This document shows positions 9,643 to 31,509 of a stretch of 64,000 nt of DNA, in pieces (position 1 is the stretch's first letter; every line of letters begins with the position of its first letter). The DNA is from Algoriphagus machipongonensis (lineage in GTDB: Bacteria; Bacteroidota; Bacteroidia; Cytophagales; Cyclobacteriaceae). A program made the translations under genes and the position numbers. Below the pieces are notes generated by a model that saw nothing but the letters and a program-made list of their open reading frames with translations, was not told the DNA's origin and searched no databases. The stretch is from NCBI RefSeq assembly GCF_000166275.1, contig NZ_CM001023.1, positions 930,001-994,000 on the forward strand, in the 5' to 3' direction.

Positions 9643-9658
9643 AAAATAGTAATTCGGT

Positions 9659-9692
9659 AAAACCCTCGGAGAGTTTAGGCTTCGAGGGTTTT
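9659..9692 (+). terminator. Rho-independent terminator of clpB
   Basis: AAAACCCTCG (9659-9668) pairs with CGAGGGTTTT (9683-9692) across a 14-nt loop, and the T-rich tract continues to about 9700. Confidence 0.85.
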
Positions 9693-9714
9693 TTATTTTT
9701 AATTAACTTGTCAT

Positions 9715-9897
9715 ATGCTCGAACATTTCTTTCAATGCCCTTATTGTCTTGCAGAAATCTCCATGTTGGTTGATCCCTCAGTCTCCTCGCAAAAGTACAT
9801 TGAGGATTGCGAGGTTTGCTGTAATCCTATAGAAATTCAAGTCTCAATAGACGAAGGGGAAATCATTATTTTCGAAGCAAATTCAATTGAACAATAA
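9715..9897 (+). CDS. CPXCG-motif cysteine-rich small protein
   Basis: This 60-residue protein has the pattern QCPYC near residues 8-11 and DCEVCC near 32-37, a two-knuckle zinc-ribbon arrangement followed by an acidic tail. It matches the small family annotated as CPXCG-motif cysteine-rich protein, although the usual Gly after the first knuckle is Leu here (CPYCL). The function of the family is unknown to me. The stop lies 1 base from the end of the convergent gene, so the two 3' ends abut with no visible terminator between them. Confidence 0.75.
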   Translation: MLEHFFQCPYCLAEISMLVDPSVSSQKYIEDCEVCCNPIEIQVSIDEGEIIIFEANSIEQ

Positions 9898-9898
9898 A

Positions 9899-10303
9899 TT
9901 ACTTTGCTTCTTTTTTTAAAGTGATTTTACCCAAATCCTTAGGCAAGTTTTTTGTCTTTAAGACTACATCAGTTGATTCGTGATCAATCATGGAAATTTG
10001 TAAGGTTATCTCTTCCGATGTGAAATCTTCTAAATCTAAATAAAAGTTCCCTTTTATATCGGTAACAGTTCCTGTGTCTTCATTTTTGACGATAATGATT
10101 GCGCCCGGGAGTGGACTTTTATCCTGGGAAAGAACAATGCCTTTTACTATTTTTTTTGCTTCTAAATACGCTCCATCCCCGGCAGATGTAAGCTGGGTTA
10201 TTGAAAACGCTAAGCCTCCTAGGAAGAGAAAGAGCACTGTGAGAATACTAAACTTTAATTTTCTCTGGTAGAGTTTGTGGGCCTTGTTGATTGAGTTTTT
10301 CAT
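9899..10303 (-). CDS. Membrane-anchored protein with carboxypeptidase-regulatory-like domain
   Basis: I start at the ATG at 10303; the longer frame uses TTG at 10327. The product (about 134 residues) has a basic N-terminus (KAHKLYQRKLK), a hydrophobic anchor or uncleaved signal (FSILTVLFLFLGGLAFSITQL), then a CarboxypepD_reg-like beta-sandwich: VKGIVLSQDKSPLPGAIIIV...GTVTDIKGNFYLDL. These domains occur at the N-terminus of TonB-dependent receptors, but here the domain stands alone. A paralogue with the same C-terminal pattern (LPKxxGxIxL) lies at 12730-13104, on the other side of the DPP IV gene. The function is unknown. Confidence 0.72.
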   Translation of the reverse strand: MKNSINKAHKLYQRKLKFSILTVLFLFLGGLAFSITQLTSAGDGAYLEAKKIVKGIVLSQDKSPLPGAIIIVKNEDTGTVTDIKGNFYLDLEDFTSEEITLQISMIDHESTDVVLKTKNLPKDLGKITLKKEAK

Positions 10304-10366
10304 ATCATTACGAAATTTTAATAACAATATGATATAATTAGTTTTTAAATCCTAATTACCTGAAAA

Positions 10367-12601
10367 TTAATTCACTGGAGTGTGCTTCATCAAATAGTTA
10401 GTAAGCAAAGTATATAAATGAAGTGAGGTTCCTTCACCTTCCCTAATCCCATGTGACCTGTTAGGGTAAGGCATCATCTGGAATTGCTTGTTATGCTTAA
10501 TCAATTCGTTGATCAGCATTTCTGCACTTTGATAGTGTACGTTATCATCACCAGTTCCATGGACAACCAATAAATTTCCTTCCAGATTTTTGGCATACGT
10601 AATTGGAGATCCGTTCACAAAATCTTCCATGTTTTCCTGAGGAAGTCCCATGTAGCGCTCTTGATAGATGTTGTCATAAATCAACTGATTTGAAACTGAG
10701 GCGACAGACATACCAGTCTGATAAACTTCCGGGAATTTAAACATCAGGTTCAAAGTCATGGATCCACCACCACTCCAGCCCCAAACTGCTACTCTTTCCT
10801 CATCTAAATAAGGGAGCTTTAATAATTCTTTTGCTGCCAAACCTTGATCTTGGGCATTGATCACACCGATTTTTCTATAAATGATTTTTCTCCAATCGCT
10901 ACCTTTGAGAGTCGGCGTACCTCGATTATCCATGTCGATGATGAAATAACCCTTTTGCGCCAGCATAATATTGAAAAGACCGACCTGTGTATCTGTAGCC
11001 ACGGTACTCCAAGGTTCGCCATAGACGTGGAAAAGCACTGGATATTTCTTCGATTCATCAAAATCCACTGGATAGATTACCCGTGCATCCATAGTAACTC
11101 CTTCAGAAGTAGTCACAGTGGTAAACTTGATTTCAGGCGTTTTAAGAGAAGCCAGTTTGGTTTTGTAAGCCTGATTCTCTACCAATGATTTCAGCACCTC
11201 ATGCTTCGGCAAAGAGACCAATCTCGTGGTCAATGGATCCGAAGTGCTTTGATGATTATGTACTGCAAATTCACCGTTTGGAGCGATATCATAAGTATTT
11301 ACTCCTTCAAAAGCCTCTGGAGTCACACGTCGAAGTTTTCCTTTTCCTGCCAAATCAATGGCATACAGATAGCGCTGCGTCGCATTTTCAGGAGAAGCGA
11401 TAAAGAAGACTTCTTTGTCAGAAAGGCCTCCAAAAGAAGCAACATCATATTCTCCTGGAGTAAGTAAGGTCTTGTTTCCAGTGGAGATATCGACTTTATA
11501 AAGATGTCTCCAGCCATCATTTTCGGTCATGCGGAGAAAAGCTTTTCCATCATCTACCAGTGGCAAACTATTATCACTCCAGCCATATCTGGATAAGTCA
11601 GGATAAGCCAAATCCACCCAAGTCTTTTCAGTTTCTACATAAACCTTCTTTAGTTCTTCATTGGATGGTTTATAGGTCCAGATAGTCAATTGATTTTGCT
11701 TTCTATTCATCTGCTGAATCAAGAGTAGATCCTCATTGATCCACTGCATGCCAGGCAGGTAATTTTCTTTTTCGCCTCCGGGAATAGGAAGCCATTTGGT
11801 CTTTTTGGAAGCAATGTCGACTAGGCCAATTTTCGCTCCGGCAGGTTCTTCACCCACTTTTGGGTATTGTAAGGGAATCGGTCTGGAATAGACTGAATCC
11901 GTATTGTTGATCATGTAAAAGGTTCCGATTTTGGAGGCATCGATTTGCCAAAAAGAAATGAACTTGGCATCTGGACTCCAAGCAAAACCATCCCGTTTTC
12001 CAAACTCTTCTTCATAAGCCCAGTCGAAAGTTCCGTTAATGATTTTGTCAGTCCCATCAGAGGTCAATTGAGTGACTTCCCCTGTTTTAAAGTCCTCTAA
12101 ATACAAATTGAATTTCTGCACATAAGCGACTTTGGAATTGTCTGAAGAGAACTTCGCAAACATCAAGGAGGAAGATTCAAATTGTGCCCCCAACTTCTTC
12201 AGAAGTTTTGTATCCAGATCATAAACGTAATAGTCTCCTTTGGTATTGGATCTCCAGACCCTGCTGGAATTGGTGAAAATCAAGACCTTGCTACCGTCTT
12301 CTGAAAGGCTGAAAGATTCGATTCGTATAGGCTTACCATTGCTTTGTAAAGCAGATCCCGGCACAAAAACGCTCTTCTCTAAACTTTTGCTATCCCATCT
12401 TGCCAGTTCATTTCCATTCTCCACAGTGACATAAGCCGCTCCATTTTCAATCCATTGGATCGGCTGGAGCCTTTCTTGGCTGAATTCATTGGAAGCGTAG
12501 ATTCTCTCTAGTGTGAGAATATCAGAAGTTTGGGCTTGGATGCTTTGAGTGAAAACAGAAAAAAGGATTCCTAAAAAAAGGAGGTGAATGGGACGTTTCA
12601 T
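10367..12601 (-). CDS. Dipeptidyl peptidase IV family serine peptidase (S9B), secreted
   Basis: The protein has 744 residues with a Sec signal (ILFSVFTQSIQAQ). The N-terminal half is an eight-bladed propeller containing DWAYEEEFG, the double-Glu motif that holds the substrate amino terminus in DPP IV. The C-terminal alpha/beta hydrolase has GWSGGG (Ser about 610; GWSYGG in most homologues), GTGDDNVHYQ (Asp about 685) and RSHGIREG (His about 717). DPP IV removes Xaa-Pro or Xaa-Ala dipeptides from peptides. A periplasmic location and peptide scavenging are inferred. Small carboxypeptidase-regulatory-like paralogues flank it on both sides in the same orientation, so it may be part of a minus-strand transcription unit. 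Confidence 0.93.
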   Translation of the reverse strand: MKRPIHLLFLGILFSVFTQSIQAQTSDILTLERIYASNEFSQERLQPIQWIENGAAYVTVENGNELARWDSKSLEKSVFVPGSALQSNGKPIRIESFSLSEDGSKVLIFTNSSRVWRSNTKGDYYVYDLDTKLLKKLGAQFESSSLMFAKFSSDNSKVAYVQKFNLYLEDFKTGEVTQLTSDGTDKIINGTFDWAYEEEFGKRDGFAWSPDAKFISFWQIDASKIGTFYMINNTDSVYSRPIPLQYPKVGEEPAGAKIGLVDIASKKTKWLPIPGGEKENYLPGMQWINEDLLLIQQMNRKQNQLTIWTYKPSNEELKKVYVETEKTWVDLAYPDLSRYGWSDNSLPLVDDGKAFLRMTENDGWRHLYKVDISTGNKTLLTPGEYDVASFGGLSDKEVFFIASPENATQRYLYAIDLAGKGKLRRVTPEAFEGVNTYDIAPNGEFAVHNHQSTSDPLTTRLVSLPKHEVLKSLVENQAYKTKLASLKTPEIKFTTVTTSEGVTMDARVIYPVDFDESKKYPVLFHVYGEPWSTVATDTQVGLFNIMLAQKGYFIIDMDNRGTPTLKGSDWRKIIYRKIGVINAQDQGLAAKELLKLPYLDEERVAVWGWSGGGSMTLNLMFKFPEVYQTGMSVASVSNQLIYDNIYQERYMGLPQENMEDFVNGSPITYAKNLEGNLLVVHGTGDDNVHYQSAEMLINELIKHNKQFQMMPYPNRSHGIREGEGTSLHLYTLLTNYLMKHTPVN

Positions 12602-19831: not shown

Positions 19832-20413
19832 TTATGAATTTTCTAAAATCGCCTTTCTCACATTTCCATGAAATTCATTGATGGCTTTGGTGTGGAAATA
19901 TGGATAAATGATCTTATCCCTGAACCAGGAGCCACTTCTATAAAACGTTTTATGAGAAACTTCGGTCTTTCCATTGGCCAATGTTTTAAAACGAATAAAC
20001 TGACTTCCTTCGGATTTTGAGTTTTCTAAATAGCATGTTCGGATTAATCTTTTATCCGCATCTACATCCATAACTTCATGGCCCACGGTAAGCTTGATCG
20101 CACCTCCAAAAACATGCAGGTTAAGTATGATGACTTGACCAACTCCCATTCCATCCAAATACACTTCCCCCGGAAAAACTTCTTCACCAGTTTCTCGAGA
20201 ATAAAGCTGATTGAAATGGATCATTTTTCCCGACCAGGCCCTTTCAGGATCTATTTCTACATAAGCTTTCCATACCTCATCAATTGATTGATCGTATTCG
20301 TACTTTTCGAAATGCACATGGTAATCAGGATCAGATTCCGAATAACAAATGGAATTCATTTGAGAGTAGGCTGAGCTGTGCTCAAGCTCTTGGGCTGGTG
20401 TTGAAGTACTCAT
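19832..20413 (-). CDS. SRPBCC-like protein of unknown function
   Basis: This 193-residue protein lacks a signal peptide. The pattern of a charged N-terminal strand (YHVHFEKYEYDQSIDEVWKA), internal strands (QVIILNLHVFGGAIKLTVGH, RLIRTCYLEN, QFIRFKTLANGKTEVSHKT) and a final helix (KAINEFHGNVRKAILEN) is what one expects of a START/SRPBCC lipid-binding fold. I infer this from the sequence pattern only. The start Met at 20413 is the first ATG. It is the terminal gene on this strand after the S9 peptidase terminator. Confidence 0.55.
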   Translation of the reverse strand: MSTSTPAQELEHSSAYSQMNSICYSESDPDYHVHFEKYEYDQSIDEVWKAYVEIDPERAWSGKMIHFNQLYSRETGEEVFPGEVYLDGMGVGQVIILNLHVFGGAIKLTVGHEVMDVDADKRLIRTCYLENSKSEGSQFIRFKTLANGKTEVSHKTFYRSGSWFRDKIIYPYFHTKAINEFHGNVRKAILENS

Positions 20414-20485
20414 GAAGGGGGAAATCCTTTAGAAAATGGATTTAAATAAAGGGCTTGCGAACGGTTTTGACAAGTGAAAATAAAA

Positions 20486-20514
20486 AAAAAGAGGCTTTTT
20501 AAAAGCCTCTTTTT
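20486..20514 (-). terminator. Strong bidirectional-type terminator hairpin
   Basis: GAGGCTTTT (20491-20499) and AAAAGCCTC (20501-20509) flank a single central T, extended by A5 and T5 arms. On the minus strand it follows the stop of the S9 peptidase gene by 6 bases. Confidence 0.85.
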
Positions 20515-20519
20515 GATTC

Positions 20520-23441
20520 TTAAAATGCTCTTTCTTTTAGATGTTCCTCAAGGTCAACTTTGTCAATGCCCTTGGATAGCCATTCTGGCGCCTCTTCACC
20601 TTTTAGGTGGTGGTTAAAGAATTCCATCATTCGAACGCTATAATCTTTTCTGTTTTCCGGTTTGCCCAATCCATGGTTTTCACCTTTGTATTGAACTAAA
20701 ACAACTGGTTTTTTCAAACGTCTAAGAGCTGAGTAATATTCAATTCCCTGGGTGAAATCTACTGCACCATCTTTATCATTGTGTAGCATCAGAAGTGGTG
20801 TATTTACATTTTTCACATGGTAGACAGGGCTATTTCGCTCATAGGAATCCCAGTTCTCCCAAGGTCCTCCAGTAAATCTTCCTTGCGAAGCTTCGAAGAT
20901 GGACATGTTTCCGCCTCCAGAGTTCCAATAGATCAAGTCATACATGGATATCATGTTCGTCAATGGAGCTCCAGCAGCAGCAGCTTTAAACATATCCGTT
21001 TGGGTAATCAAGAATGCGGTCTGATAGCCGCCCCAAGAGTGCCCGTGAATACCGATGTTGTCTTCGTCTATTACACCTGTTTTAATGGCTTCTTTAACTG
21101 CCGGGATTACACACCAAACTGCAGACATTCCTGGGTCATCCATGGTGTAGACGATATCTGGAATAAATACTGCGAAACCATTGCTCGTATAGACATTAGG
21201 ATTCCATCCAGTACCACTAAATGACGGTTCGGACCAATTATGTCTGGTTTGAGAAAGTTTCTCATAATAATATACCATGGTAGGGTATTTTTTTCCTTCC
21301 ACATAACCAGCTGGAAGGAATAGAGTTCCTTGAAGGCTATCCCCCTTATCTGAAACATAATCTACAAGTCGAGTTCCTGCTGACCAAGAGTACTTAGATG
21401 CATCAGGGGCATTTTCTGTCACCTGTTTTGCATCACTTAAATCAGCATCTGCAAGGTAATACTGAGTAGGCTCGTTAAATTTTTCTTTGGTGTAAAGATA
21501 AACTGGAGCTTTGTCAGCTTTTTGAAGAGAACCAATGGCTGCATCCTCCCAAATAAGTTTTTCAGCTCCTGGCTCCAATCCTTTTTTAGCTGGATCTAAC
21601 TTGGCAATACCACTTTTTTTAGTCCACTCTCCGTAAATTCTAAAATATTGAGGCTTACTCAAGTCAAAGCCTTTTTCATCAGGATCTAATCTAAAACGAT
21701 ATTGATATCTGATCTTTTCAGATCTTCCATCCTGCGTCAAGTTAACGGGACTTTCTTTGCCTCCCTCTACTGGAACCTGCCAGATATCCCATCCATCACT
21801 GATCAATACATATTTGCTGTCCGAAGACCAACCTAATAAGTTGTGTAATGGTTTTTTGACATTATGATCATCTTCTACGTCGACTACAGAAACTGGAAGA
21901 CTTGCAGTTAAATTAGTCTCTTCTCCGCTGGCAATATCATAAACATAGTAATTGCCATCATACCCATAATTAAGCTTTGTTCCATCAGGGGAAGGTCTTG
22001 GGTAGGAAGAATAACTTGGTAAATAGAAGTTTGTAAATAAGGTTGATTTCTCACCTGTTTTTAAGTCAACTACATAAAAATCACGATAATTTTGACCATT
22101 TAAATTCGTCTCTAGCTCGTATTTCTGTAAGTCTGAACCCAAAGCGAAATGTTGCTTTGGAAGTAAGCTTAAGTCTTTCATGGAACTGTCCTGTAGGGCA
22201 GTGTGCTTTTTAGAAGCGACATCATACATAGCCCAAAAACTATAATTCTTGTCCATGTTTTCCATGACTTGTTGTCTGGACTGAAGTCTGCTATCATTCC
22301 AATGCCAAATGGTCATGTCAGGAGTGTCGGCATCTTTTTTCTTCGCTTCAGTTTTGGTTGTGTCAAGGTTGGCAATGGCCTTCTTAAGATCTTTGATAGA
22401 ATGGATAGATGTGTCAGCCATGATTTTTTTCATAGCTTCAGATTCTGCCATAGCTACAGAATCTTTATCCAATTCTTTCTTGGCTTCCTCTTTTTTCGCT
22501 AGCACCAGCGGGTGAATTCCGTAAAATAGTCGAGTCAAATCTTCAGACCACATAGGACGTCTGTTAGGACTGATAGTATAAGCCTGGTCAAATCCAGTAG
22601 AATCTTTTTGAGGATCATACACCGTCACTTGAGGAGCTGTTAAATTTTTCACGCCAATGATCTTGCCTTGATCCTGCTTGTACTTTTTATCTTCTACCAT
22701 TTTCAAAGCAGCAAAAGCATCACCTTTTTCTGTCCAGCTTAGTGATTTGTAGCTGGCTTTGTCATTGTCAAGAATCTGCGTGCTATTGTTTGCAAGGTTG
22801 AGAAGGTAAATGCCATTCCCGGATTTATTGCTGGCGTCAACGGTATATGCCAAATAAGTTCCTGGTTTGTTAAATGAGAACTCCAAAACATTCCCCAGGT
22901 TTAGTGCTTTTTCTGTCGATAGGTTATAAATCAATAAATCTGAACCTTTTCCTTCTCCATTACCATCTTTGGGTAGGTTAATGGCTAATACAGAAGAACC
23001 CTCATTATTGAATGAAAATGTACCCACCTTTTCAAAAGTCTTTTTCTCATCTGTACCTAATTTTATTAGATGAAGCTTATCATGTAAAGGCTTGCCTTTG
23101 GATTTTTTATTTTTCTCGGCTTCTTCAAACTTAGGGTCTTCCTTAAATGCTAACCATTTGGAGTCCTTACTGAAAACCACTTGTTGGCTTCTTACACCAC
23201 CAATATCATAGGTTTTTTCACTTTCAGGATCACCAACTTTCTTCACATAAAGCTTGCCGTCTCCTTCCATTTGGACAATGGTGTATGCGATCCATTGTCC
23301 ATCTGGAGAAATATCAAAACCTCCTCGGTTTAAATATTTCCAGGTGGGGATATCCTGCCAGGTAATGGGTTTTAAGTCTTGGGCTTGGGCACTAATAGCC
23401 AGAAAGGCAAGAACCCAAAAAGCGAGTAAGTGTTTACGCAT
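20520..23441 (-). CDS. Secreted prolyl-oligopeptidase family peptidase (S9)
   Basis: This large, 973-residue protein has a signal peptide (LLAFWVLAFLAISAQAQ). The long N-terminal propeller (about 30-700) includes a Lys-rich insertion around residues 310-370 (AKKEEAKKELDKDS). The C-terminal hydrolase has GHSWGGYQTAF (Ser about 802), NDKDGAVDF (Asp about 890) and ENHGLG (His about 930), the S9 triad in order. The closest known groups are the S9C/acylaminoacyl-peptidase-like secreted enzymes of Bacteroidota; the specificity is unclear. With DPP IV and the M19 dipeptidase it gives three exported peptidases in 25 kb, fitting peptide nutrition. It is monocistronic with its own terminator. Confidence 0.9.
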   Translation of the reverse strand: MRKHLLAFWVLAFLAISAQAQDLKPITWQDIPTWKYLNRGGFDISPDGQWIAYTIVQMEGDGKLYVKKVGDPESEKTYDIGGVRSQQVVFSKDSKWLAFKEDPKFEEAEKNKKSKGKPLHDKLHLIKLGTDEKKTFEKVGTFSFNNEGSSVLAINLPKDGNGEGKGSDLLIYNLSTEKALNLGNVLEFSFNKPGTYLAYTVDASNKSGNGIYLLNLANNSTQILDNDKASYKSLSWTEKGDAFAALKMVEDKKYKQDQGKIIGVKNLTAPQVTVYDPQKDSTGFDQAYTISPNRRPMWSEDLTRLFYGIHPLVLAKKEEAKKELDKDSVAMAESEAMKKIMADTSIHSIKDLKKAIANLDTTKTEAKKKDADTPDMTIWHWNDSRLQSRQQVMENMDKNYSFWAMYDVASKKHTALQDSSMKDLSLLPKQHFALGSDLQKYELETNLNGQNYRDFYVVDLKTGEKSTLFTNFYLPSYSSYPRPSPDGTKLNYGYDGNYYVYDIASGEETNLTASLPVSVVDVEDDHNVKKPLHNLLGWSSDSKYVLISDGWDIWQVPVEGGKESPVNLTQDGRSEKIRYQYRFRLDPDEKGFDLSKPQYFRIYGEWTKKSGIAKLDPAKKGLEPGAEKLIWEDAAIGSLQKADKAPVYLYTKEKFNEPTQYYLADADLSDAKQVTENAPDASKYSWSAGTRLVDYVSDKGDSLQGTLFLPAGYVEGKKYPTMVYYYEKLSQTRHNWSEPSFSGTGWNPNVYTSNGFAVFIPDIVYTMDDPGMSAVWCVIPAVKEAIKTGVIDEDNIGIHGHSWGGYQTAFLITQTDMFKAAAAGAPLTNMISMYDLIYWNSGGGNMSIFEASQGRFTGGPWENWDSYERNSPVYHVKNVNTPLLMLHNDKDGAVDFTQGIEYYSALRRLKKPVVLVQYKGENHGLGKPENRKDYSVRMMEFFNHHLKGEEAPEWLSKGIDKVDLEEHLKERAF

Positions 23442-23679
23442 AATTTTGATCTTTTTTTAGAATCTGAAAATAGGGAAAAATACTTAATTAAGATTGTTAA
23501 GGTTTCTTTAATGCCACAATGTGTCAAGTAAATAGGGATAGCAGATCGAATTATTTAAATAGTTAGTTATATTTATCAGAAAAGTGCCAGTTATGAAAAA
23601 GTTTACATTTTTTTCATTGCTTTACAGATGGCGAAGTGATTCTAATTCCTTTTATTTTAAAAGTTAAATCGGTATTGAT

Positions 23680-24471
23680 ATGATTAAAAAGTATCCTTTT
23701 TGCCTGCTTATTTTGATTCTATTTTCATGTAATCAAAATAGATATCCCGTAGGTCATTTCCCTGATAAGGCGGTGAATTTAGATGTTCTTAATTCTGCAA
23801 AAGATGATATCAACTCGGATATTATCACAATTAACCATGAAGTAGAGCTGGTTTTTTCATCTAACAGAATTGGTTCTAATCCAAATCACTTCAACCTGGT
23901 TGAGGGAAGGTTAGTTTTTTATTGGGATAGAAAAGAAGGTTTTTTGAGTGTAAGTGAAGGGGACAATTTATTCGATACAGAACTGAGAGATTGGGTAAGA
24001 AAAACAGAAACTCCCTTTAATGAAAAAGGCCCTTATAGCTTTCAAACGCCTGAGGGAAATCGAATTTTGTTGTTTAGTCGAGATAATGATCAAGGTTTTT
24101 ATTCTATCCATGTTGAACCTCAAGTTTCCAATTCTTCCGAACTGGAACTTCAAAACGTTAGAATCATGGATGAATCATCCAATGAAATGTATCCGAGTTT
24201 TTACGGGGCTGACTATTTGAAAGGGGGGAATGTAGAAACCCAAGGAATCCCTGAAAAACTATTGTTTAGCTCAGATAGAGATGGGCAATTTGATGTTTAT
24301 GAAATGGATATTCCTTCAGATCAAAGCCCGGTTCCTTATTTAATCGGAGAAACAGAAAAGAATATTCAAAAAATTTCTATCAATTCTTCCGCTTCTGACC
24401 ACATGCCATTTGTTTATGGTGAGATGTTGGTTTTCTCTTCGGATCGAGTTGGAGGGATTAGGTGGTTTTGA
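23680..24471 (+). pseudogene. PD40/TolB-like propeller lipoprotein, apparently 3'-truncated by frameshift
   Basis: The open frame encodes 263 residues: a lipoprotein signal (FCLLILILFSC) and propeller repeats (VELVFSSNRIG, KLLFSSDRDGQFDVYEMDI, MLVFSSDRVGG). The frame ends VGGIRWF-stop at 24469-24471. Dropping the A at 24460 restores the usual PD40 continuation GGFDLYYV, but a second stop follows at 24500. The gene therefore looks broken inside a propeller blade, with the rest missing. It directly precedes an AT-rich islet with a degenerate repeat, fitting decay after an insertion or deletion. A sequencing error cannot be excluded, but it would not explain the second stop. Confidence 0.6.
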
Positions 24472-24867
24472 TTTGTATTATGTGGGAATTCCGAAATTCT
24501 GATTAAAGTTCTTTCCTATGGTCAATAGCTCGAGAGATTTTCTTTGGTATTTTGGCTTGATCCAAAAGAACCCCGCCTACTGAAAAGCAAAAGGTCAAGA
24601 CGAAGTCCCGATAGCTTTCCGTGTACTCCTGCCGCACAAATATGGGCGATGGCTCAATGCTGCGTCAGCCCACCTAGTACTAAAATATAATATTGTATGG
24701 TTAATTTTTAGATGAATAGAAATGGCTCTTTAGGCCATTTCATATTGGAGTGTTTAGGTTTGGGGCTTTAGCCAAAGATTTTCGTTAAAAATAAAGAGGT
24801 GGAAATTCAGGATTGAAAATTCTTAAGAGCAAGATATTTGGTTGACCAATGTTTGAAACTTTGGTTT
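24472..24867. other. Gene-free stretch with degenerate inverted repeats
   Basis: No credible ORF was seen. It holds an inverted repeat TTTTGG-CTTGAT-CCAAAA (24550-24567), the motif GTCCCGATAGCT (near 24605-24617) that recurs at about 36391-36405 on the other strand, and a second hairpin AAATGGC-loop-GCCATTT (24721-24741). The composition suggests the remains of an intergenic repeat element. Confidence 0.5.
24605..24617 (+). repeat. Dispersed short motif GTCCCGATAGCT, copy 1
   Basis: The 12-base core matches, in reverse complement, the palindromic insert TAGCTATCGGGAC inside the tRNA-Ala fragment near 36391-36404. Only two copies were noticed by eye in the window. Confidence 0.45.
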
Positions 24868-25503
24868 TTAATCTAGAAAATGAAAAACTAGATTTATTGT
24901 TAAGCCTGTAAAATTTATTAATGAATGTAGTATTATAGAATGAATGACGTTATACCTAATAGCTACAATGCCAAAGATAAAACCCGAGAAAATATAAGGT
25001 ATAATAGATATTAATAGGAAAAGAGGGCTATTAAATTGATAATTAAGACCCGAATGAAAGATTCCAAAAATAAGGGAGGAAATAATTAATATAATTATTC
25101 TTTTTCTTTTTAATAATTCCTGATCAATTGAAATATTTTTGCTGATGAGGTAAATAGAAACAGCTATTAAATAGGTTAGGGTTATATCTATCCAAAAATT
25201 AATATTTAAAAAATACTCTAACACTTTAAATACAAAAACAACTAGAAAAAATGAAAAGCCAAGTTTAACCAGTTCCTTGTTTTTCGAAAAAACGGCACGA
25301 AAAGATAGTTCCTCCAGAACTGGAGTTAGTATACAAAATGCGGCAAAGGAACTAAGTATGCCAAAAAGGTTGAATTCAGAAAAGAATACCCTCTCTATTT
25401 TAGTTAGATAGCTGGATCCTGTAAATTCTTTAAGAAAAAAATTAAATAATGAAGTGAAAAAAATGATGTACAGATAAAAAGGATATATTTTTTTTAAAAT
25501 CAT
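24868..25503 (-). CDS. CPBP-family intramembrane metalloprotease (CAAX/Abi type), likely immunity or processing protein
   Basis: The 211-residue, very hydrophobic protein has six to eight membrane segments. All three CPBP motifs are present: EExxxR as EELSFR near residue 64, FxxxH as FGIFH near residue 147, and HxxxN as HSLIN near residue 192. CPBP proteins include prenyl-protein proteases and the Abi-type proteins that sit next to bacteriocin genes and confer self-immunity (for example in plantaricin and sakacin loci). Here it follows two double-glycine-leader peptide genes on the same strand, so immunity is the best inference. Codon and base use is clearly more AT-rich than in the neighbours, suggesting transfer. 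The start codon abuts a terminator hairpin. Confidence 0.82.
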   Translation of the reverse strand: MILKKIYPFYLYIIFFTSLFNFFLKEFTGSSYLTKIERVFFSEFNLFGILSSFAAFCILTPVLEELSFRAVFSKNKELVKLGFSFFLVVFVFKVLEYFLNINFWIDITLTYLIAVSIYLISKNISIDQELLKRKRIIILIISSLIFGIFHSGLNYQFNSPLFLLISIIPYIFSGFIFGIVAIRYNVIHSIILHSLINFTGLTINLVFHFLD

Positions 25504-25530
25504 AAAAAGGTGGGAGCCTTAATCTCCCAC
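25504..25530 (-). terminator. Intrinsic terminator/attenuator between peptide genes and CPBP gene
   Basis: On the minus strand GTGGGAG (25530-25524), a 7-nt loop and CTCCCAC (25516-25510) are followed by C and five T, immediately before the CPBP start codon (25503). It should reduce read-through into the membrane protein and may also hide its ribosome-binding region. Confidence 0.75.
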
Positions 25531-25547
25531 ATTAAGATTAATTAAGT

Positions 25548-25739
25548 TTAACTTTTTAAATCTTTAATCGCTTGTACCCCTTCTTTTACCCCATCAGCAA
25601 ATGCTACCATTGCATTTACTGCATTTGAGGTCATGGCACCTAAGAAATAACCGATATTATATCCTAATGTATAGGATTCCTCTGATCCTCCATGAATAAT
25701 GAGGAGCTCATTTTGACTTAAGTTTTCGAATTTTTTCAT
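25548..25739 (-). CDS. Double-glycine-leader peptide B (putative class IIb bacteriocin subunit)
   Basis: I start at the ATG at 25739, not the upstream in-frame start at 25775, because it lies 4 bases after the stop of peptide A and begins the leader. The 63-residue precursor has leader MKKFENLSQNELLIIHGG (Gly17-Gly18), matching the pattern LSxxELxxIxGG. Cleavage after Gly18 would give 45 residues containing G26xxxG30xxxG34 (GYNIGYFLG), a helix-packing motif seen in two-peptide bacteriocins. The mature peptide is slightly acidic, unusual for a bacteriocin. Leader processing normally needs a C39-peptidase ABC transporter; none is in this window. A pheromone or another exported peptide is the main alternative. 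Confidence 0.72.
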   Translation of the reverse strand: MKKFENLSQNELLIIHGGSEESYTLGYNIGYFLGAMTSNAVNAMVAFADGVKEGVQAIKDLKS

Positions 25740-25743
25740 CTCT

Positions 25744-25941
25744 TTACCATTTTTGGTTTGTGTCCTTAAAGCCATTTACAAATCCATCACCAAAACCAGA
25801 AATTGAATCAGCTATATTATTCATTGCATTCAAAATGTCATAGGCCCAATGATCAAATATTTTATCTGTGAAAAAATAATCATCTTGACCGCCACCTATT
25901 TCAATCAATTCTATGTTTTTCAATTCTTTAAACTTTTCCAT
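25744..25941 (-). CDS. Double-glycine-leader peptide A (putative class IIb bacteriocin subunit)
   Basis: This 65-residue precursor has leader MEKFKELKNIELIEIGGG with Gly17-Gly18 aligned to those of peptide B; nine of the 18 leader positions are identical (M1, K3, F4, L7, E11, L12, I15, G17, G18). The 47-residue mature part begins QDDYFF and contains G49xxxG53xxxG57 (GFGDGFVNG). It is strongly acidic (about 8 Asp against 3 Lys). The two peptide genes are 4 bases apart and surely co-transcribed. The paired GxxxG motifs, similar mature lengths and CPBP neighbour are the hallmark of two-peptide systems. It has no resemblance to other genes in the window. Confidence 0.72.
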   Translation of the reverse strand: MEKFKELKNIELIEIGGGQDDYFFTDKIFDHWAYDILNAMNNIADSISGFGDGFVNGFKDTNQKW

Positions 25942-26272
25942 AAGTTTATAGCATTTTCGTTCCCTCGAAATTTAACAGTATTCGAATAAACTCATCACAG
26001 CCCTTCTATGATCGTTAACTAGCATTGGATCAATGTGACTGATCATATTTCTAATTAAAGTTCCTTCCGTCTAAAATAATGGACGGAAGAAAATAAAAGT
26101 ATTTTTCACCTGCATTTTTTAGTAAAAGGTTAATGCACCAAGATTATTCAAATGAACCTTGCTTTTAATTTTAAATGCTTAACCATTGTTTCTATTGGTT
26201 TTGATTAAAATTAAGACTTTCTTCCTCTGAAACCTGCAACTGCTTTACGGGACTGAAACACTGTTTACATTC
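25942..26272. other. AT-rich upstream region of the peptide operon
   Basis: No ORF is supported. It should hold the promoter of the peptide operon, reading leftwards; no exact TAnnTTTG box was found (the nearest is TAAATTTC on the minus strand, around 25965). It also contains the 8-bp inverted repeat described separately. Confidence 0.5.
26064..26089. promoter_or_regulatory. Inverted repeat, possible operator upstream of peptide operon
   Basis: CTTCCGTC (26064-26071) and GACGGAAG (26082-26089) are separated by 10 bases. The arms extend to 10 of 11 matching positions. No T run follows on either strand, so a terminator is unlikely. It lies about 120-150 bases upstream of the peptide A start, a position suited to a regulator site. 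Confidence 0.4.
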
Positions 26273-27976
26273 CTACTGAAGACTGTAAACAATTTTTCCA
26301 CCCATAACAGTCATCATGACTTTGCTATTTAAAATCTCCGATTCTGGGATTTCCATAATGTTTTTATCAAAAACAGTGAAATCCGCTGCTTTTCCTACTT
26401 CTATAGAACCTTTAAAATCTTCTTCGAATTCAGCATAAGCTCCATCCAAGGTGTAAGACTTTAAAGCCTCTTCTCGGGTCATTTTTTGACTCGATTCATA
26501 ACCACCCTCTGGAGTGCCTTCCAATGTTTGTCGACTTACTGAAGCAAAAAAGGAAGGTGTCGGATCTACTGGTTCCACTGGTGCATCTGTTCCATTGGTT
26601 ACTACAGCACCGCTTTGCATTAATTTTTGCCAAACATAAGCTCCATCCACAATTCTTTTTTCTCCCAATCGATCGATCGCCCAAGGTCTGTCTGAACTCA
26701 AATGAATCGCCTGCATGGCGGCAATTACGCCCAATTCCCCGAATCTTGGAATGTCTTCTGGATCGATATGTTGAGAATGTTCAATTCGGAATCTCAAGTC
26801 TTTCGCATCCGGAAATTTTGCAAATGCCGCTTCGTATTGATCTAAAACTTCCCTGTTTGCACGATCTCCAATAGCATGGGAATTAACCTGGAATCCTGCT
26901 GGAATGGCTTTTTCGGATACTTGTCCTACGACTTCCATTGGAAGCGTCTCATGTCCAAAATGCCCAGGCCTGTCAGTATATTCTTCCAAAAGCCAAGCTC
27001 CTCTAGAACCTAAAGCTCCATCACAGAATAATTTGATGGATCTTACAGAAAATAAATGATCTACGCTGTCGATCATGGGACCTCTTTTGTACCAGTTTTC
27101 TAAAAGTTCAGGCTCACTTCCCGCCAGCATCATGTAGTGCCGAGAAGTCAATTTCCCTTCGTTCTTAAATTTCAACAATAAATCTATTGTCTCCTGACCA
27201 CTTCCTGCATCATGAAAACTGGTGATCCCCTTTTCTGCCAATTCTTTCAATGCCAAAGTCAAGGCTTGTTCGGCTCTTTCTGGCGTTTCCTCAGGAACCA
27301 ACTTGCCTACTAACCAAGAGGCTCTTTCTGTCAAAACACCTGTTGGATTTCCTAGTTCATCCAAAATGATTTCACCTCCTTCGACTTCACCAGGTCTTTC
27401 TCCTTTGAGATTACTGATGCCTGCCAGTTCCAACGCTTTCGAATTTGCAAAAGAAGCATGACCTGAAGCATGTCTTAGAAATACCGGATTGTCGGGTGAA
27501 ACTTCATTCAAAAGGTCATTGGTCTGAAAGCCTTTCACCATTTTTTCCGGCTTTTCGATCCATTTGTCTTGATGCCAACCTCTTCCTGTGATCCAGTCTC
27601 CAGGTTTTGCTTTGGCTACAGCCTCAGCCACTTTTTCCACAAGTTCGTCGTAGGTTTTGACATACATCAGGTCAAGTTCGAGTTTATTATAGCCGATTCC
27701 CATCAAGTGTGCATGGGATTCGATCAGCCCCGGAGTCATGGTCATTCCGAGGAGGTTCACTAGTTGAGTTTCCTCAGAGAGGTATTCATTAATTTCCAGG
27801 GAGCTTCCCAAAGCCAAAATCATCCCGTCTTTCACTGCGACAGCTTCAACTTTAGGGTTGGAGGCATCAACTGTGTAAATTGTGCCATTGGTGAAGATCA
27901 TATCAGCAGACTCTTTTTGTTGAAGACAACTTTGAAAAAGGAGAGTTGCGAGAAGAAGTGTAAAAAGATTTTTCAT
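26273..27976 (-). CDS. Amidohydrolase family 3 lipoprotein (YtcJ-like)
   Basis: The 567-residue protein has a lipoprotein signal (TLLLATLLFQSC). Amidohydrolase-3 landmarks are present in order: GTIYTVD, MTPGLIESHAHL (metal His pair), GRGWHQDKW, TSFHDAG, CDGALGSRGA, NSHAIGDRAN, RIEHSQHI and NGTDAPVEPVDP (metal Asp near residue 475), followed by the C-terminal beta-sandwich return with VGKAADFTVFD. Members hydrolyse amide bonds of varied substrates with one or two metals. The true substrate is unknown. The lipid anchor suggests the periplasm or outer-membrane face. It is monocistronic and flanks the bacteriocin-like islet on its right side. Confidence 0.9.
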   Translation of the reverse strand: MKNLFTLLLATLLFQSCLQQKESADMIFTNGTIYTVDASNPKVEAVAVKDGMILALGSSLEINEYLSEETQLVNLLGMTMTPGLIESHAHLMGIGYNKLELDLMYVKTYDELVEKVAEAVAKAKPGDWITGRGWHQDKWIEKPEKMVKGFQTNDLLNEVSPDNPVFLRHASGHASFANSKALELAGISNLKGERPGEVEGGEIILDELGNPTGVLTERASWLVGKLVPEETPERAEQALTLALKELAEKGITSFHDAGSGQETIDLLLKFKNEGKLTSRHYMMLAGSEPELLENWYKRGPMIDSVDHLFSVRSIKLFCDGALGSRGAWLLEEYTDRPGHFGHETLPMEVVGQVSEKAIPAGFQVNSHAIGDRANREVLDQYEAAFAKFPDAKDLRFRIEHSQHIDPEDIPRFGELGVIAAMQAIHLSSDRPWAIDRLGEKRIVDGAYVWQKLMQSGAVVTNGTDAPVEPVDPTPSFFASVSRQTLEGTPEGGYESSQKMTREEALKSYTLDGAYAEFEEDFKGSIEVGKAADFTVFDKNIMEIPESEILNSKVMMTVMGGKIVYSLQ

Positions 27977-28038
27977 GGAGAAGGTGGTTAACCTAAGTAA
28001 GCTAGCCTAATTCCTTCAATTCACAAAGAAAGCAATGC

Positions 28039-30123
28039 CTACTGCATCCAAACTTTTCTAGAAGTGGTGAACTTGCCATCAATTTGTAGGTGAAGGATAT
28101 ACAGCCCCGGATTTAAAAAACCACTTTGTATTTCAAGGGGTATGTTGGCTTCAATTGCGATATTCTCTAACATCACTTGACCCAAAGAAGTGATGAGGGT
28201 TGCTTTTGCAGGTAAATTAGAGAGGACCTTGATTGGGCCATCGCTTGGGTTGGGATAAACTTTAATCCTAAATTCATTTTCTCCTGGACTTTGAGAATCT
28301 TCCGTATTTAAGTAAATCAATCCTCCTGCTCTTGTTCCAAGGATTAAATCTGGTGCTTCCTCAAAGAGAGGGTTGACAATGCTTATCCAAGTGTTCCTTC
28401 CCAATCTTGTTGGGAAATTCTGATTAGCTGTTTCTATTAGAACCTCAGAACGTATAGCCAAATTCATGAAATCTGTAATCTTGATGATTTGCCCATTTTG
28501 GTCAACAGCAAACAAGTCGGGATTGGGTTTTTTATGGACAGCAACACTGAGGTTTCTGTTGGCAGGATTATCTGAAAAATCCAGGAAATTTTCCTCCTGA
28601 ATACTAGCTGTAAAGGTGCTGAAATCTGTTTGATATAAATCCAAACTTCCGTTTTGAGCTGCGACGAGCATAAAGTCTTCTCCTTCGTAATGGAATAGCT
28701 GCAAATAATCGCTTCGACTTGGCTCATAACCTGTGAGTTCAAAAGGGAGGTACTCTGTTTGGGACTCATTTAACTCAAAAAGCTTTTGACTAGGAATATT
28801 ATCCGAGATGGAAATACCTGAGATAATATTATGATGCTTACCCTGCAGATCATTGAACAATAAGTTTTGTACATCAATCAGATTTAGCTCATCCAATAAG
28901 TTATTGGATACATCAACTCTATTGAAAGTGCCATTCTCTAAATGAAAGATAGATTGTTTACTGATCACCTCGCCATTAACCAATTGGTTGGAAGTGACGA
29001 AGACTGAGCCTTCACTTTTGTTTCCTATGTACAATGGGTTGCTGTTTTCCCCTAAGTCAATCATCTGATTTTGTAGAAAAGTGAAATCAGAGTTTCCTTC
29101 TGGGGTTATTTTTACGATTGAGTTTTCGAAATCAACTCCATAATTGATTGATATTTCATTGGTGTTTAAACCAATAATCAGGTTTTCGTCAATTACCTGT
29201 GCTGTATGAAAAATTGGAAATTCAGGAAGGGTGCCGTATTCGGGAAGCTGTTGTTCAATTTCTGTGAAAATAGGGGTGTTTAAAGTCCCCGTGTTCGGTA
29301 AAAAATACAGCGAGCTGCATTCATCTCTTCCTAATAAAAGATCGGGAATCCCATCTGAGTTAAAATCGCGATAAAGAATAGAATGTCCACCTGCGTGTTG
29401 GATTTTACCATTAATGTCTTCTGCTATTCTCAAATCTATCCCACTGCAGGTTCTTCCCACTGCTATCTCTCCACAACCACAAAACTCAAAATTTCCCCAA
29501 TGGGTAATTGGGAAAGCAAAACCGTCCACATCTGGACTGTCTTTTCGGTCCATGCTTGTGTTTTCATAAAACTCCAAATAATCCCCTGAAGCAAAATTGA
29601 AAATGACTAAATCTAAATCTCCATCGCCATCCAAATCCTTGATCAAAGGCGTGTCCAGATTATTGGCTTGAATATTCCCTGAACCATCAATTTTTAGGAA
29701 ATTCTGGGCTACTTCCCATGAAATCTGACCATTTGATGAGGTGTTTTTATATGCTTTTATCCCCAAAGGAGTTGAAGTGAATAGGTCTTTTTTGCCATCC
29801 AGATCAAAATCTTCCAGAATCAAAAAACCTGCAATATCACTAGGAAAAAAATAACTTAGCTCTGGTAAGTGGATCATCATTTCCCCCTCTTTTTTATAAA
29901 CCTGAAGTTGTCTTGAATTGATATCCCAAATCACCCACTCATCTACTTGATCTTCATCAAGATCTATGGTTTGAATCTGGGAAGAATTAATTCCCCCGCT
30001 AAATGGAGCGCTTAGGTTAATGCCGTCTTGAGTGACCTCAGGGCTGTTTTTAAAAGAATAAATTTCTTGTGCTTGGGTGCGAAAAGCCAAAAGAAGAAAA
30101 AGGTATATATAGAGTTTTCGCAT
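28039..30123 (-). CDS. FG-GAP/VCBS repeat protein with type IX secretion sorting domain
   Basis: The 694-residue protein has a signal peptide (LYIYLFLLLAFRTQAQ) and many integrin-like repeats with Asp-rich calcium loops (DLDEDQVDEWVIWD, DFDLDGKKDLF, DLDGDGDLDLVIF, DFNSDGIPDLLLG). The C-terminal ~75 residues are a typical T9SS type A domain: KVYPNPSDGPIKV...LPAKATLITSLGQVM...LNPGLYILHLQIDGK...KVWMQ. It should be exported to the cell surface or medium by the Por/type IX machinery, whose genes are not in this window. The target is unknown; adhesion or polymer binding is only a guess. Confidence 0.9.
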   Translation of the reverse strand: MRKLYIYLFLLLAFRTQAQEIYSFKNSPEVTQDGINLSAPFSGGINSSQIQTIDLDEDQVDEWVIWDINSRQLQVYKKEGEMMIHLPELSYFFPSDIAGFLILEDFDLDGKKDLFTSTPLGIKAYKNTSSNGQISWEVAQNFLKIDGSGNIQANNLDTPLIKDLDGDGDLDLVIFNFASGDYLEFYENTSMDRKDSPDVDGFAFPITHWGNFEFCGCGEIAVGRTCSGIDLRIAEDINGKIQHAGGHSILYRDFNSDGIPDLLLGRDECSSLYFLPNTGTLNTPIFTEIEQQLPEYGTLPEFPIFHTAQVIDENLIIGLNTNEISINYGVDFENSIVKITPEGNSDFTFLQNQMIDLGENSNPLYIGNKSEGSVFVTSNQLVNGEVISKQSIFHLENGTFNRVDVSNNLLDELNLIDVQNLLFNDLQGKHHNIISGISISDNIPSQKLFELNESQTEYLPFELTGYEPSRSDYLQLFHYEGEDFMLVAAQNGSLDLYQTDFSTFTASIQEENFLDFSDNPANRNLSVAVHKKPNPDLFAVDQNGQIIKITDFMNLAIRSEVLIETANQNFPTRLGRNTWISIVNPLFEEAPDLILGTRAGGLIYLNTEDSQSPGENEFRIKVYPNPSDGPIKVLSNLPAKATLITSLGQVMLENIAIEANIPLEIQSGFLNPGLYILHLQIDGKFTTSRKVWMQ

Positions 30124-30213
30124 ACGGGATGAAGGGGAAATCTAAAATTAATACGGAAGTATCAGTCCAAAGATGTGAATGATTCATTTATTTTGGAGTA
30201 AAATAAGTCGAAA

Positions 30214-31509
30214 ATGAATATTTCTATCCTGTACAGCCTTTTCAAAAAAAGTACCGGTGTCAGCACAGATACCAGAAAAATTGGGAAGGGGAATGTCTTT
30301 TTTGCCCTTAAGGGGCCGAATTTTGATGCCAATGAGTTTGCCCCCAAAGCATTGGAGCAAGGAGCTTCATTAGTAGTGATTGATGATCCTAAGTACTTTA
30401 TAGAGGATGATGAACGCTATTTTTTGGCTAAGGATGCCTTGAAAATGTTGCAGGATTTAGCTAATTATCACAGGAAGCAATTGACGATACCTATTATTGG
30501 ATTGACGGGTTCTAATGGGAAAACCACCTCCAAAGAATTGCTTCATGCTGTACTACAAACCAAATTTAAAACTGTAGCCACGGTCGGTAATCTGAATAAT
30601 CATATTGGTGTTCCGCTTACTTTACTTTCTATTCCTGAGGATGCAGAAATGGCAATCGTTGAGATGGGAGCAAATAAACAGGGTGATATTGAGGAGTTAT
30701 GCGAAATAGCTGAACCAACGCACGGATTTATTACCAATATTGGGAGAGCTCACCTAGAAGGGATGGGTGGTCCTGCGGGAGTTTTGAAAACCAAGACTGA
30801 ATTATTCCAGTTTTTAAGAGCGAATAAAGGGACGGTTTTCATCAATTCTCAGGACCCTGTATTGTCGAATATGGCGAAGAGATTTGATAAGCCTGTTTTG
30901 TACCCTGCAAAAGGAGATTTTTGTGAAGTAGGTTTCGTGGAGGCAAATCCTTTTGTCAAATTCACAGTGGAAGGTACAGAAGAAGTTTATTTGAGTTCAC
31001 TAATCGGCGCCTATAATTTTGGGAATATTGCCAATGCATTGGCAGTAGGGAAGTATTTTGAAGTAGAAATGAAAGGCGCAATTGAAGCGATCGTGAACTA
31101 CCAGCCTTCAAATATGCGATCTCAACTTCTTGAAAAGAGGAGCAATCTGATTATTCTAGATGCTTATAATGCAAATCCATCAAGTATGGAGGTAGCTATC
31201 CGAACATTTGGTGAAATGACCGGGAAAAAGCATAAAATGATAATCTTGGGAGATATGTTTGAATTGGGAGAGCATGCAGAAGAGGAACACGCAAAGCTTG
31301 GTGAGATTATCAGTGAATATGAGATTGAAAAGGTGTGTTTCACTGGTAAACTGATCGTTTCCGCTTTAGCCAGATACCCTAAAGCACTTTATTTTCCTGA
31401 TCCATTTTCTTTTAGAAATTGGCTTCAGGATAGCCAATTAGAGGACTATTTAATTTTGATCAAAGGAAGCCGGGGAATGAAGCTAGAAGGTCTGGTTGAC
31501 TTTATTTAA
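30214..31509 (+). CDS. murF: UDP-N-acetylmuramoyl-tripeptide--D-alanyl-D-alanine ligase
   Basis: The 431-residue Mur ligase has an N-terminal substrate domain (about 1-85), the ATP loop GLTGSNGKTT near residues 95-105, NNHIGVPLTLL, EMGANKQGDIEELCEIAEPT and NIGRAHLEGMG, with the C-terminal domain opening LDAYNANPSSM near residue 310. The MurF-type NNxIGVPLT and DAYNANPxSM motifs separate it from MurC, D and E. It adds D-Ala-D-Ala to the UDP-MurNAc-tripeptide in the cytoplasm. It lies outside a dcw cluster, as is frequent in this phylum, and diverges from the FG-GAP gene. Confidence 0.95.
   Translation: MNISILYSLFKKSTGVSTDTRKIGKGNVFFALKGPNFDANEFAPKALEQGASLVVIDDPKYFIEDDERYFLAKDALKMLQDLANYHRKQLTIPIIGLTGSNGKTTSKELLHAVLQTKFKTVATVGNLNNHIGVPLTLLSIPEDAEMAIVEMGANKQGDIEELCEIAEPTHGFITNIGRAHLEGMGGPAGVLKTKTELFQFLRANKGTVFINSQDPVLSNMAKRFDKPVLYPAKGDFCEVGFVEANPFVKFTVEGTEEVYLSSLIGAYNFGNIANALAVGKYFEVEMKGAIEAIVNYQPSNMRSQLLEKRSNLIILDAYNANPSSMEVAIRTFGEMTGKKHKMIILGDMFELGEHAEEEHAKLGEIISEYEIEKVCFTGKLIVSALARYPKALYFPDPFSFRNWLQDSQLEDYLILIKGSRGMKLEGLVDFI

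Follow-up and report, generated by a model that had tools for sequence, protein, structure and literature searches.

Two-peptide bacteriocins are known from Gram-positive bacteria. The class IIb peptides bear GxxxG or similar motifs, and the Abi-protein homologues SkkI, PlnI, and PlnL are linked to bacteriocin self-protection, according to the available portion of PMC8538875; in that of PMC10434283, lactococcin G has G7xxxG11 in both peptides, and acidicin P has A5xxxG9 in the alpha and S16xxxG20 in the beta peptide. For the Bacteroidota, class II bacteriocin candidates have already been reported in large-scale mining (PMC12648078, in excerpt), and the bacteroidetocins are described in the accessible part of PMC6671954 as GG-leader peptides with an ABC transporter that carries a double-glycine peptidase domain; the first two of these contain four cysteines, are somewhat basic, and lie in four-gene regions with a thiol oxidoreductase and, as far as that part of the source goes, with no obvious immunity gene. 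The kinds of component at issue here—peptides with GG leaders, exporters of the C39 type, and immunity by CPBP/Abi proteins—were already known.

We analysed a 64-kb stretch of the genome of Algoriphagus machipongonensis—hereafter the window, meaning that stretch at its full length—in which a sequence-only reading had proposed a class IIb-like bacteriocin locus with a CPBP immunity protein. What the window holds is a small acquired gene set, which most likely encodes a two-part antibacterial peptide together with a protection protein. The class IIb-like proposal stood in part: peptide pairs of this kind recur and an exporter exists, whereas no peptide of the window reaches the cut-off of a class IIb family.

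The cassette and its insertion

The three genes lie on the minus strand. Peptide A is encoded at 25744-25941 as a precursor of 65 residues, whose leader (MEKFKELKNIELIEIGGG, 25888-25941) precedes a mature part of 47 residues; peptide B is encoded at 25548-25739 as a precursor of 63 residues, with the leader MKKFENLSQNELLIIHGG (25686-25739) and a mature part of 45 residues. For the latter we took as the start the ATG at 25739, the mechanical ORF opening upstream at 25775, within A. Four bases (25740-25743) separate the two genes, and each leader is 18 residues long and ends in GG, with 9 of the 18 residues identical between them; in all these respects the ORFs and their translations agreed with what the sequence-only reading had described, as they also did for the lengths of the mature parts and for the presence of GxxxGxxxG in both peptides. 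In A, the GxxxG motifs start at residues 49 and 53; those of B start at 26 and 30, with an additional one at 50. Both mature parts are free of cysteine, and their net charges are -5 (A) and -2 (B). That acidity had been called odd; the peptides are indeed acidic, but the oddness did not hold, the summed charge being zero or negative in 17 of the 20 pairs of the group described below.

The tandem GG-leader pair with its CPBP gene is not a chance arrangement. A fixed leader rule applied to the 64 kb of the window returned exactly two ORFs, namely A and B; 60 Markov-1 simulated windows gave a mean of 0.48 leader-rule ORFs, and in none of the 60 did a tandem pair occur. Composition shuffles produced GxxxGxxxG in 0.9% (A) and 2.5% (B) of the instances.

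The third gene (24868-25503) encodes a membrane protein of 211 residues, a CPBP (Rce1-like) protein that we propose as the immunity protein and in which the motifs previously read there—EELSFR, FGIFH, and HSLIN—are all present. This protein scored 35.8 bits against Pfam PF02517 (gathering cut-off, 22.4), and its residues E64, E65, R69, H150, H193, and N197 were invariant across eight set-linked or homologous CPBPs. A PDB sequence search with the protein alone gave no match, a PDB search with a CPBP profile gave two matches, both irrelevant, and Foldseek returned nothing at E 0.001; nor was there a match at E 1e-5 in the 71 other genomes of the genus. Two metagenomic homologues with 41% identity were found, and when a profile of these three CPBP sequences was run against the 390 genomes of the family, 18 of them, the own genome counted, gave a match.

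Between B and the CPBP gene, and on the same strand, lies a terminator-like hairpin with its T run (25510-25530), composed of a 7-bp stem with five GC pairs and then CTTTTT. A scan for such sites found two, as compared to 1.1 expected from shuffles; and in the six loci examined (the window, L092, L096, L011, L210, and L230) every B-to-CPBP gap contained hairpins at least 3 SD below the mononucleotide-shuffle mean. This element suggests that more message might be made for the peptides than for the CPBP protein.

The cassette is held by an insertion with approximate borders at 24496-26252, whose flanks align in the relatives G016 and G047, the stretch itself being absent from both. In G016, which by the flanking amidohydrolase (92% identity) is the closest relative, the segments 20007-24481, 24427-24495, and 26287-30266 of the window have matches, and 24495-26287 is replaced by some 105 bases; in G047 both flanks align, and about 24 bases stand in place of the cassette stretch. 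Judged from these alignments, with a clean empty site in two relatives, the window cassette is an insertion. In G013, G014, and G070 the flanking genes align and the cassette does not, with 0.36 to 1.3 kb of unaligned DNA in between, so that a DNA match to the insertion was found in none of the five relatives checked. The G+C content of the cassette is 28.7% vs. 38.8% for the window, and none of 315 sliding stretches of equal size had a lower value. We also observed that the PD40-repeat gene adjoining the insertion (23680-24471) has a counterpart of 330 aa in G016, the match to which stops at residue 263, as though the gene were out of frame close to its end.

Relatives, peptide classes, and the exporter locus

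When A and B were searched against 5.8 billion proteins—by a method requiring shared five-letter words—each matched only itself, and the relatives were reached solely via the CPBP gene and the exporter. Peptide pairs do recur beside CPBP genes in other genomes, as the sequence-only proposal leads one to expect. in Echinicola salinicaeni (L092, L112) the genes for A, B, and CPBP follow one another as they do in the window, again with four bases between A and B, and the B peptide is 43% identical to that of the window, with GYFLGAMT in both; a metagenome-assembled genome of the Cyclobacteriaceae (L096, L111) likewise has A-B-CPBP, with GxxxGxxxG in both peptides; and at L098 a peptide set is followed directly by HlyD and a C39 exporter. 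Among 40 exporter loci (L204-L243), which were picked from the better-scoring exporter matches, 30 contained at least one GG peptide by manual reading (a rule match at L242 having been set aside) and 15 a CPBP by profile. Of the 26 loci that the set-CPBP profile retrieved outside the family sets (25 from the order, with flanks of about 1.5 kb, plus Larkinella L114), 5 held believable GG peptides, one further rule match looking spurious. As a control, the 30 best PF02517 loci of the genus yielded no GG ORF by the rule, a narrow control in that the frames are alike in length, which points for the most part to a single housekeeping orthologue.

The scan of 54 loci listed 21 tandem pairs, from which two belonging to a proline-rich array (L243) were set aside to leave 19; the Echinicola salinicaeni pair, whose A the rule had missed, was included by hand. 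A CPBP gene was present on the same strand of the retrieved stretch in 13 of the 19 pairs, the nearest CPBP being downstream in 10 of those 13, and no CPBP was within that stretch in the other 6, counts that do not come from a random sample because the loci had been selected for a related CPBP or exporter. We noted, in addition, GG pairs with no CPBP in the retrieved stretch at L217, L218, L219, L224, L235, and L237, where another membrane protein may serve; at L243 (11279-12061), next to a related exporter, four GG peptides in an array, of which three are rich in proline; and a different GG system of the genus (L042-L044, L046-L051, L054-L057), often with cysteine-rich peptides, whose long leaders are of the MKKLSLEMLRLS type and which adjoins another C39 exporter class.

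For the class profiles, the 19 pairs plus L158 and L160 made 21, the near-duplicates L218 and L219 both being counted. With leave-one-out profiles, trained without the tested pair and without rows at least 50% identical, the assignment was correct for 16 of the 21 first peptides and for as many of the 21 second peptides, five of each being misassigned or tied. Mature A of the window scored 12.2 bits with the first-peptide profile from the other loci vs. 2.0 with the second-peptide profile, and window B scored 12.6 bits with the second-peptide profile vs. 11.0 with the first, a narrow margin. These assignments support a division into two profile classes, first and second peptides, in a fixed order. 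Within 20 pairs (L219 dropped), 10 of the 11 GxxxG motifs of the first peptides were in the C-terminal half and 20 of the 28 of the second peptides in the N-terminal half, a difference in placement with p 0.0008 (Fisher) and p 0.008 (Mann-Whitney); in the eight pairs with GxxxG in both peptides, the motif was further C-terminal in the first peptide in seven. GxxxG was present in 9 of 20 first peptides, and so absent from 11, and in 17 of 20 second peptides, while GxxxG-like motifs, a weakly specific feature, were found in 18 of 20 and 20 of 20, respectively.

A and B could also be two bacteriocins that each act alone, or that antagonise different targets, and share an operon, a leader RNA, and an exporter. 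In favour of this, the rule—which misses some peptides, such as A at L092—finds a single GG peptide at L216 and L222 and three at L059 and L213; moreover, Echinicola shivajiensis, at the corresponding site with the same neighbours, has other GG peptides along with the apparent end of a B gene. The fixed order, the short gaps, and the two profile classes with their differing GxxxG placement argue instead for a pair, and we consider separate action unlikely.

The genome consists of one contig of 4.79 Mb and gave a single C39 peptidase match at E 0.001 (C1:4199066-4199458), 3.2 Mb away from the window, so that the sequence-only reading was right in seeing no C39 exporter there. That match belongs to the locus L011, the sole C39-ABC plus HlyD pair found in the genome, which adjoins a second, diverged peptide-peptide-CPBP set. 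In order of transcription, the locus comprises HlyD (C1:4199481-4200680), the C39-ABC exporter in two overlapping frames (C1:4198385-4199470 and 4197316-4198413), an HTH protein of 120 aa (C1:4196936-4197298), a first GG peptide of 56 aa (C1:4196691-4196861), a second of 55 aa (C1:4196512-4196679), and a CPBP of 215 aa (C1:4195785-4196432). The genome-wide search for a C39 transporter with an HlyD partner thus did find one such pair, but the reading frame of its exporter is broken, which break makes export in the present strain uncertain. Compared with an intact relative of 716 residues, one exporter part is 82% identical to residues 1-358 and the other 83% identical to residues 354-716, the two together spanning its whole length, so that the break is either very recent or an assembly error; the intact relative itself scored 532.8 bits with the NCBIfam peptide cleavage/export model (cut-off, 523.85). 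In the coordinates of L011 the exporter gene with its two frames spans 9317-11471, and we observed that the exporter of G328 (L240) is broken at nearly the same place, its HlyD gene being in two pieces as well.

A broken exporter, as the only one of the C39 kind, would also be in keeping with a decaying immunity island, kept for its CPBP gene while the peptides remain unexported, and the incomplete match of the neighbouring PD40 gene could be read in the same direction. The high identity of the exporter parts over the whole length of the intact relative, the open frames of A, B, and CPBP in the window, and the retention of the RNA fold described below speak against decay, which strikes us as quite unlikely.

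As to the relation between the two sets of the genome, the sequence MEKFKEL is common to both first peptides, and the full-length peptides of the window and L011 scored above all 2000 shuffles; with the mature parts alone they were not distinguished from shuffles, of which 242 of 2000 reached the A1-A2 score and 81 of 2000 the B1-B2 score. The two CPBPs are clearly related (0 of 2000 shuffles reaching their score), and a profile of 22 first peptides, run against the whole genome at E up to 1, retrieved only window A and both L011 peptides. An exporter of the L011 type may serve the window cassette.

The explanation that we favour, as being somewhat probable on balance, is that of a mobile cassette of immunity and two peptides, that is, a class IIb-like two-peptide bacteriocin with CPBP immunity, which interpretation the sequence evidence supports but does not prove. 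One transcript would begin with the folded leader RNA and go on to encode the two peptides; an exporter like the C39 one at C1:4.197-4.199 Mb would cut the GG leaders and, with HlyD, secrete the mature parts as helices; by way of the GxxxG surfaces that each of them has, A and B would act jointly as one membrane-active bacteriocin against related Bacteroidota; and the CPBP protein, made at a lower level past the attenuator-like hairpin, would protect the producer. In its favour we count the position of the only C39-ABC and HlyD pair found, next to a second GG-GG-CPBP set; the recurrence of the gene order and gap in Echinicola salinicaeni; the two peptide classes with their GxxxG placement; the weak lactococcin G-beta matches of some mature first peptides; the leader element before both sets of the genome; and the published link of Abi homologues to self-protection. 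We count against this explanation the broken exporter frame, the acidic peptides, the curated cut-offs that were not reached, the mature window peptides' want of a match to any bacteriocin model, the identical motif placement in both lactococcin G peptides, the six of 19 pairs without CPBP, the misassigned or tied peptides of both classes, the marginal assignment of window B, and the first peptides that have no GxxxG.

Leader RNA and HTH proteins

A stretch of about 135 nt directly upstream of many first peptides is common to several genera. In the window, this 5' leader element occupies 25942-26077 on the minus strand, ends at the start codon of A, and scored 93.9 bits (E 5e-21) with the covariance model R1, for which it was one of the 25 training rows. 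On the evidence of covariation, the element folds into an H-type pseudoknot, with its core at 25960-25996: stem a pairs 25990-25992 with 25977-25979, stem b pairs 25981-25986 with 25964-25969, and the former crosses the latter. RNAalifold, with the alignment as sole input, predicted a single helix, which is stem b. Over 25 copies (24 distinct), 92.4% of the 144 cells of that stem were paired and 16 cells were double-changed, neither value being reached in any of 500 shuffles; upon sliding the partner by one to three columns the pairing fell to 22 to 68%. The 33 model-fitted rows gave 94.8% of 191 cells and 19 double-changed cells, figures that the fitting biases upward. All 72 cells of stem a (GGG with CCC) were paired; three distinct sequences have an A-U pair there, and one, that of the window, has U-A. 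This result is dependent on the alignment by hand of the short-loop class, in which MAFFT had placed the gap elsewhere. The window forms all nine pairs of the two stems, and five of these use letters that differ from those in the second copy of the genome.

We dropped the notion that the stretch is the decayed 3' end of an HTH gene because the HTH stop codon of L058 falls inside it, ahead of the most conserved boxes, and because of the compensatory changes in the fold. A DNA dyad operator at stem b was held less likely, since the two copies of the genome differ in five of nine pairs and stem a crosses stem b. For an upper hairpin with a AUGCUAGCUAA loop, the 26 distinct segments gave a mean z of -1.07, and 11 of them were under -1, with 7 of 33 rows off-pattern or cut off; this hairpin is suggestive, and we do not claim it. 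In Rfam 15 the L206 copy had no match at E 5, and the window copy had four weak matches, all far below the gathering score.

At E 0.01 the model found 33 copies in 74 sources (1.13 Mb), of which 25 were the training rows and 8 were new, the weakest of the latter (E 0.0023) being possibly due to chance; the 64-kb window contained one copy, the one described above. Under stricter filters and at E 1e-5, 390 genomes of the order gave 30 copies in 16 genomes, all within the own family. The own genome has two, one before window A and the other before the first peptide of L011. Of the 30 copies, 16 are followed within 0-3 nt by the ATG of a GG peptide that satisfies the rule and 6 more by that of one recognised by eye, two of the remaining copies looking damaged and six having no GG peptide; by place, 11 of the 30 had been training rows, and a GG peptide stands behind 11 of the 19 others. 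The element precedes the first peptide in 13 of the 19 pairs, the remaining six (L096, L098, L218, L219, L235, and L237) having no match at E 0.01. As separate observations, L211 (10623-14042) has three leader RNA matches in a locus with several CPBP genes, the first match preceding a GG peptide gene that partly coincides with a CPBP gene; and at L295, L296, L307, L308, L309, and L310 the leader RNA has no GG peptide right behind it, so that these copies may be relics or belong to other gene types.

Because stem b of the window ends 22 nt upstream of the start codon of A, control of translation is a plausible role for the leader RNA, which raises the question of what the pseudoknot senses. The window peptides having no homologue in the protein database, the leader RNA moreover provides a means of finding more such sets at the DNA level.

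Of the 54 loci scanned, 35 encode, next to the exporter, a small HTH protein resembling the one of L011 or L058. All 35 proteins have an LxxxExxxI.GG-like stretch near the C-terminus; in most it lies at about residue 88, and 11 to 41 residues come after it. The stretch ends in GG in 29 and in AG in 6, that of the own genome being AG. With a matrix of 63 peptide leaders and a background of 1242 [GA]G sites in other proteins, 35 of 35 motifs were above the 95th and 33 of 35 above the 99th percentile, the counts being the same with an earlier matrix of 69 leaders; the reduction to 63 removed one HTH-derived leader and five not fitting [LI]...[EDQN], a filter that favours the motif, and since the HTH proteins are homologous (30 distinct motifs) the 35 cases are not independent. 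We know of no HTH regulator of such build, and none with a C-terminal GG-leader mimic was found in the open-licence literature. The motif suggests that a transcription factor may be a substrate or a decoy of the exporter.

The frequency of that HTH gene would also suit peptides that are signals (pheromones), which the CPBP protein would process or receive and in whose response the HTH protein would take part. CPBP proteins can act as maturation proteases, and the ComC and EntF induction-factor models were among the weak leader matches. Signals, however, fit poorly with mature peptides of 27-49 aa that are paired and fast-diverging, with a site content that differs between two Echinicola species, and with the several different CPBP genes of some loci, a pattern that resembles toxin-immunity turnover; furthermore, we saw no HTH gene next to the set of the window. 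To signalling we accordingly give little credence, and we retain the bacteriocin as the preferred reading.

To that reading a regulatory circuit might be added, though we hold it as a tentative and rather doubtful extension: a two-peptide regulon of the Cyclobacteriaceae in which the pseudoknot RNA would stand on linked and orphan cassettes alike, the GG-mimic of the HTH protein would be bound or cut by the C39 domain, and the occupancy of the exporter would set expression. If this were true, an orphan cassette would become part of the regulon through having that leader RNA as well. As far as our searches of the open-licence literature reach, no circuit of such kind has been described.

Comparison with described systems

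The cerein-7B/lactobin-type models, to which the sequence-only reading had pointed, did not recognise the peptides, window A and B being below the cut-off or without a match; neither of them reached a curated cut-off of the named class IIb families TIGR03949, NF038034, and NF038035, and the mature A and B alone matched no bacteriocin model. Being below every class IIb model cut-off, the window peptides cannot be claimed as members of a named class IIb family. With leaders on and at E 0.01, the lactococcin G-beta model was matched by 3 of 22 first peptides and the G-alpha model by 6 of 18 second peptides; with leaders off and at E 5, G-beta was matched weakly by 3 of 10 first peptides, and 0 of 10 second peptides matched. 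The NF038034 and NF038035 matches being thus partly a matter of the leader, we do not claim a kinship with lactococcin G. The matches in PDB profile searches with the peptides were likewise set aside, for they fall on the leaders. Several relatives match NF047798 (leader_Chryseo) and TIGR03949 (lactobin A/cerein 7B), with the matches shown by residue falling in the leader, and window A and B gave no match to these at E 0.01.

New, as far as the open-licence literature reaches, are the two-class pairing with CPBP in the Cyclobacteriaceae, the pseudoknot leader on linked and orphan sets, and the leader mimic of the HTH proteins. If the preferred reading is true, a fast-changing two-peptide/CPBP system would constitute a new arm of Gram-negative warfare in the Cyclobacteriaceae, and the acidic peptides call into question the custom of seeking cationic bacteriocins.

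Among described proteins, the CPBP of the window is like the Rce1-like members of PF02517 in its score above the cut-off and in its E-E-R, H, and H-N residues, and it is similar to the M949_0222 family (NF052640; E 1.1e-9) but with 38.5 bits against a cut-off of 220. With the bacteroidetocins, as the accessible part of their description presents them, the system has in common the GG-leader peptides, the Bacteroidota host, and an ABC transporter with a double-glycine peptidase, whereas the window differs in that mature A and B have no cysteine and that a CPBP gene adjoins them. The split placement of the acidicin P motifs, as excerpted, resembles the split of GxxxG between first and second peptides in our group; from the same excerpt, the G7xxxG11 of both lactococcin G peptides indicates that opposite GxxxG placement is no rule of class IIb. 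To class IIb systems of the lactococcin G and plantaricin EF/JK type, finally, the likeness consists in adjacent genes, GG leaders, GxxxG in both peptides, and one membrane protein downstream, while the set described here is distinguished by its Bacteroidota host, its acidic peptides, its folded RNA leader, and an exporter that is not adjacent.
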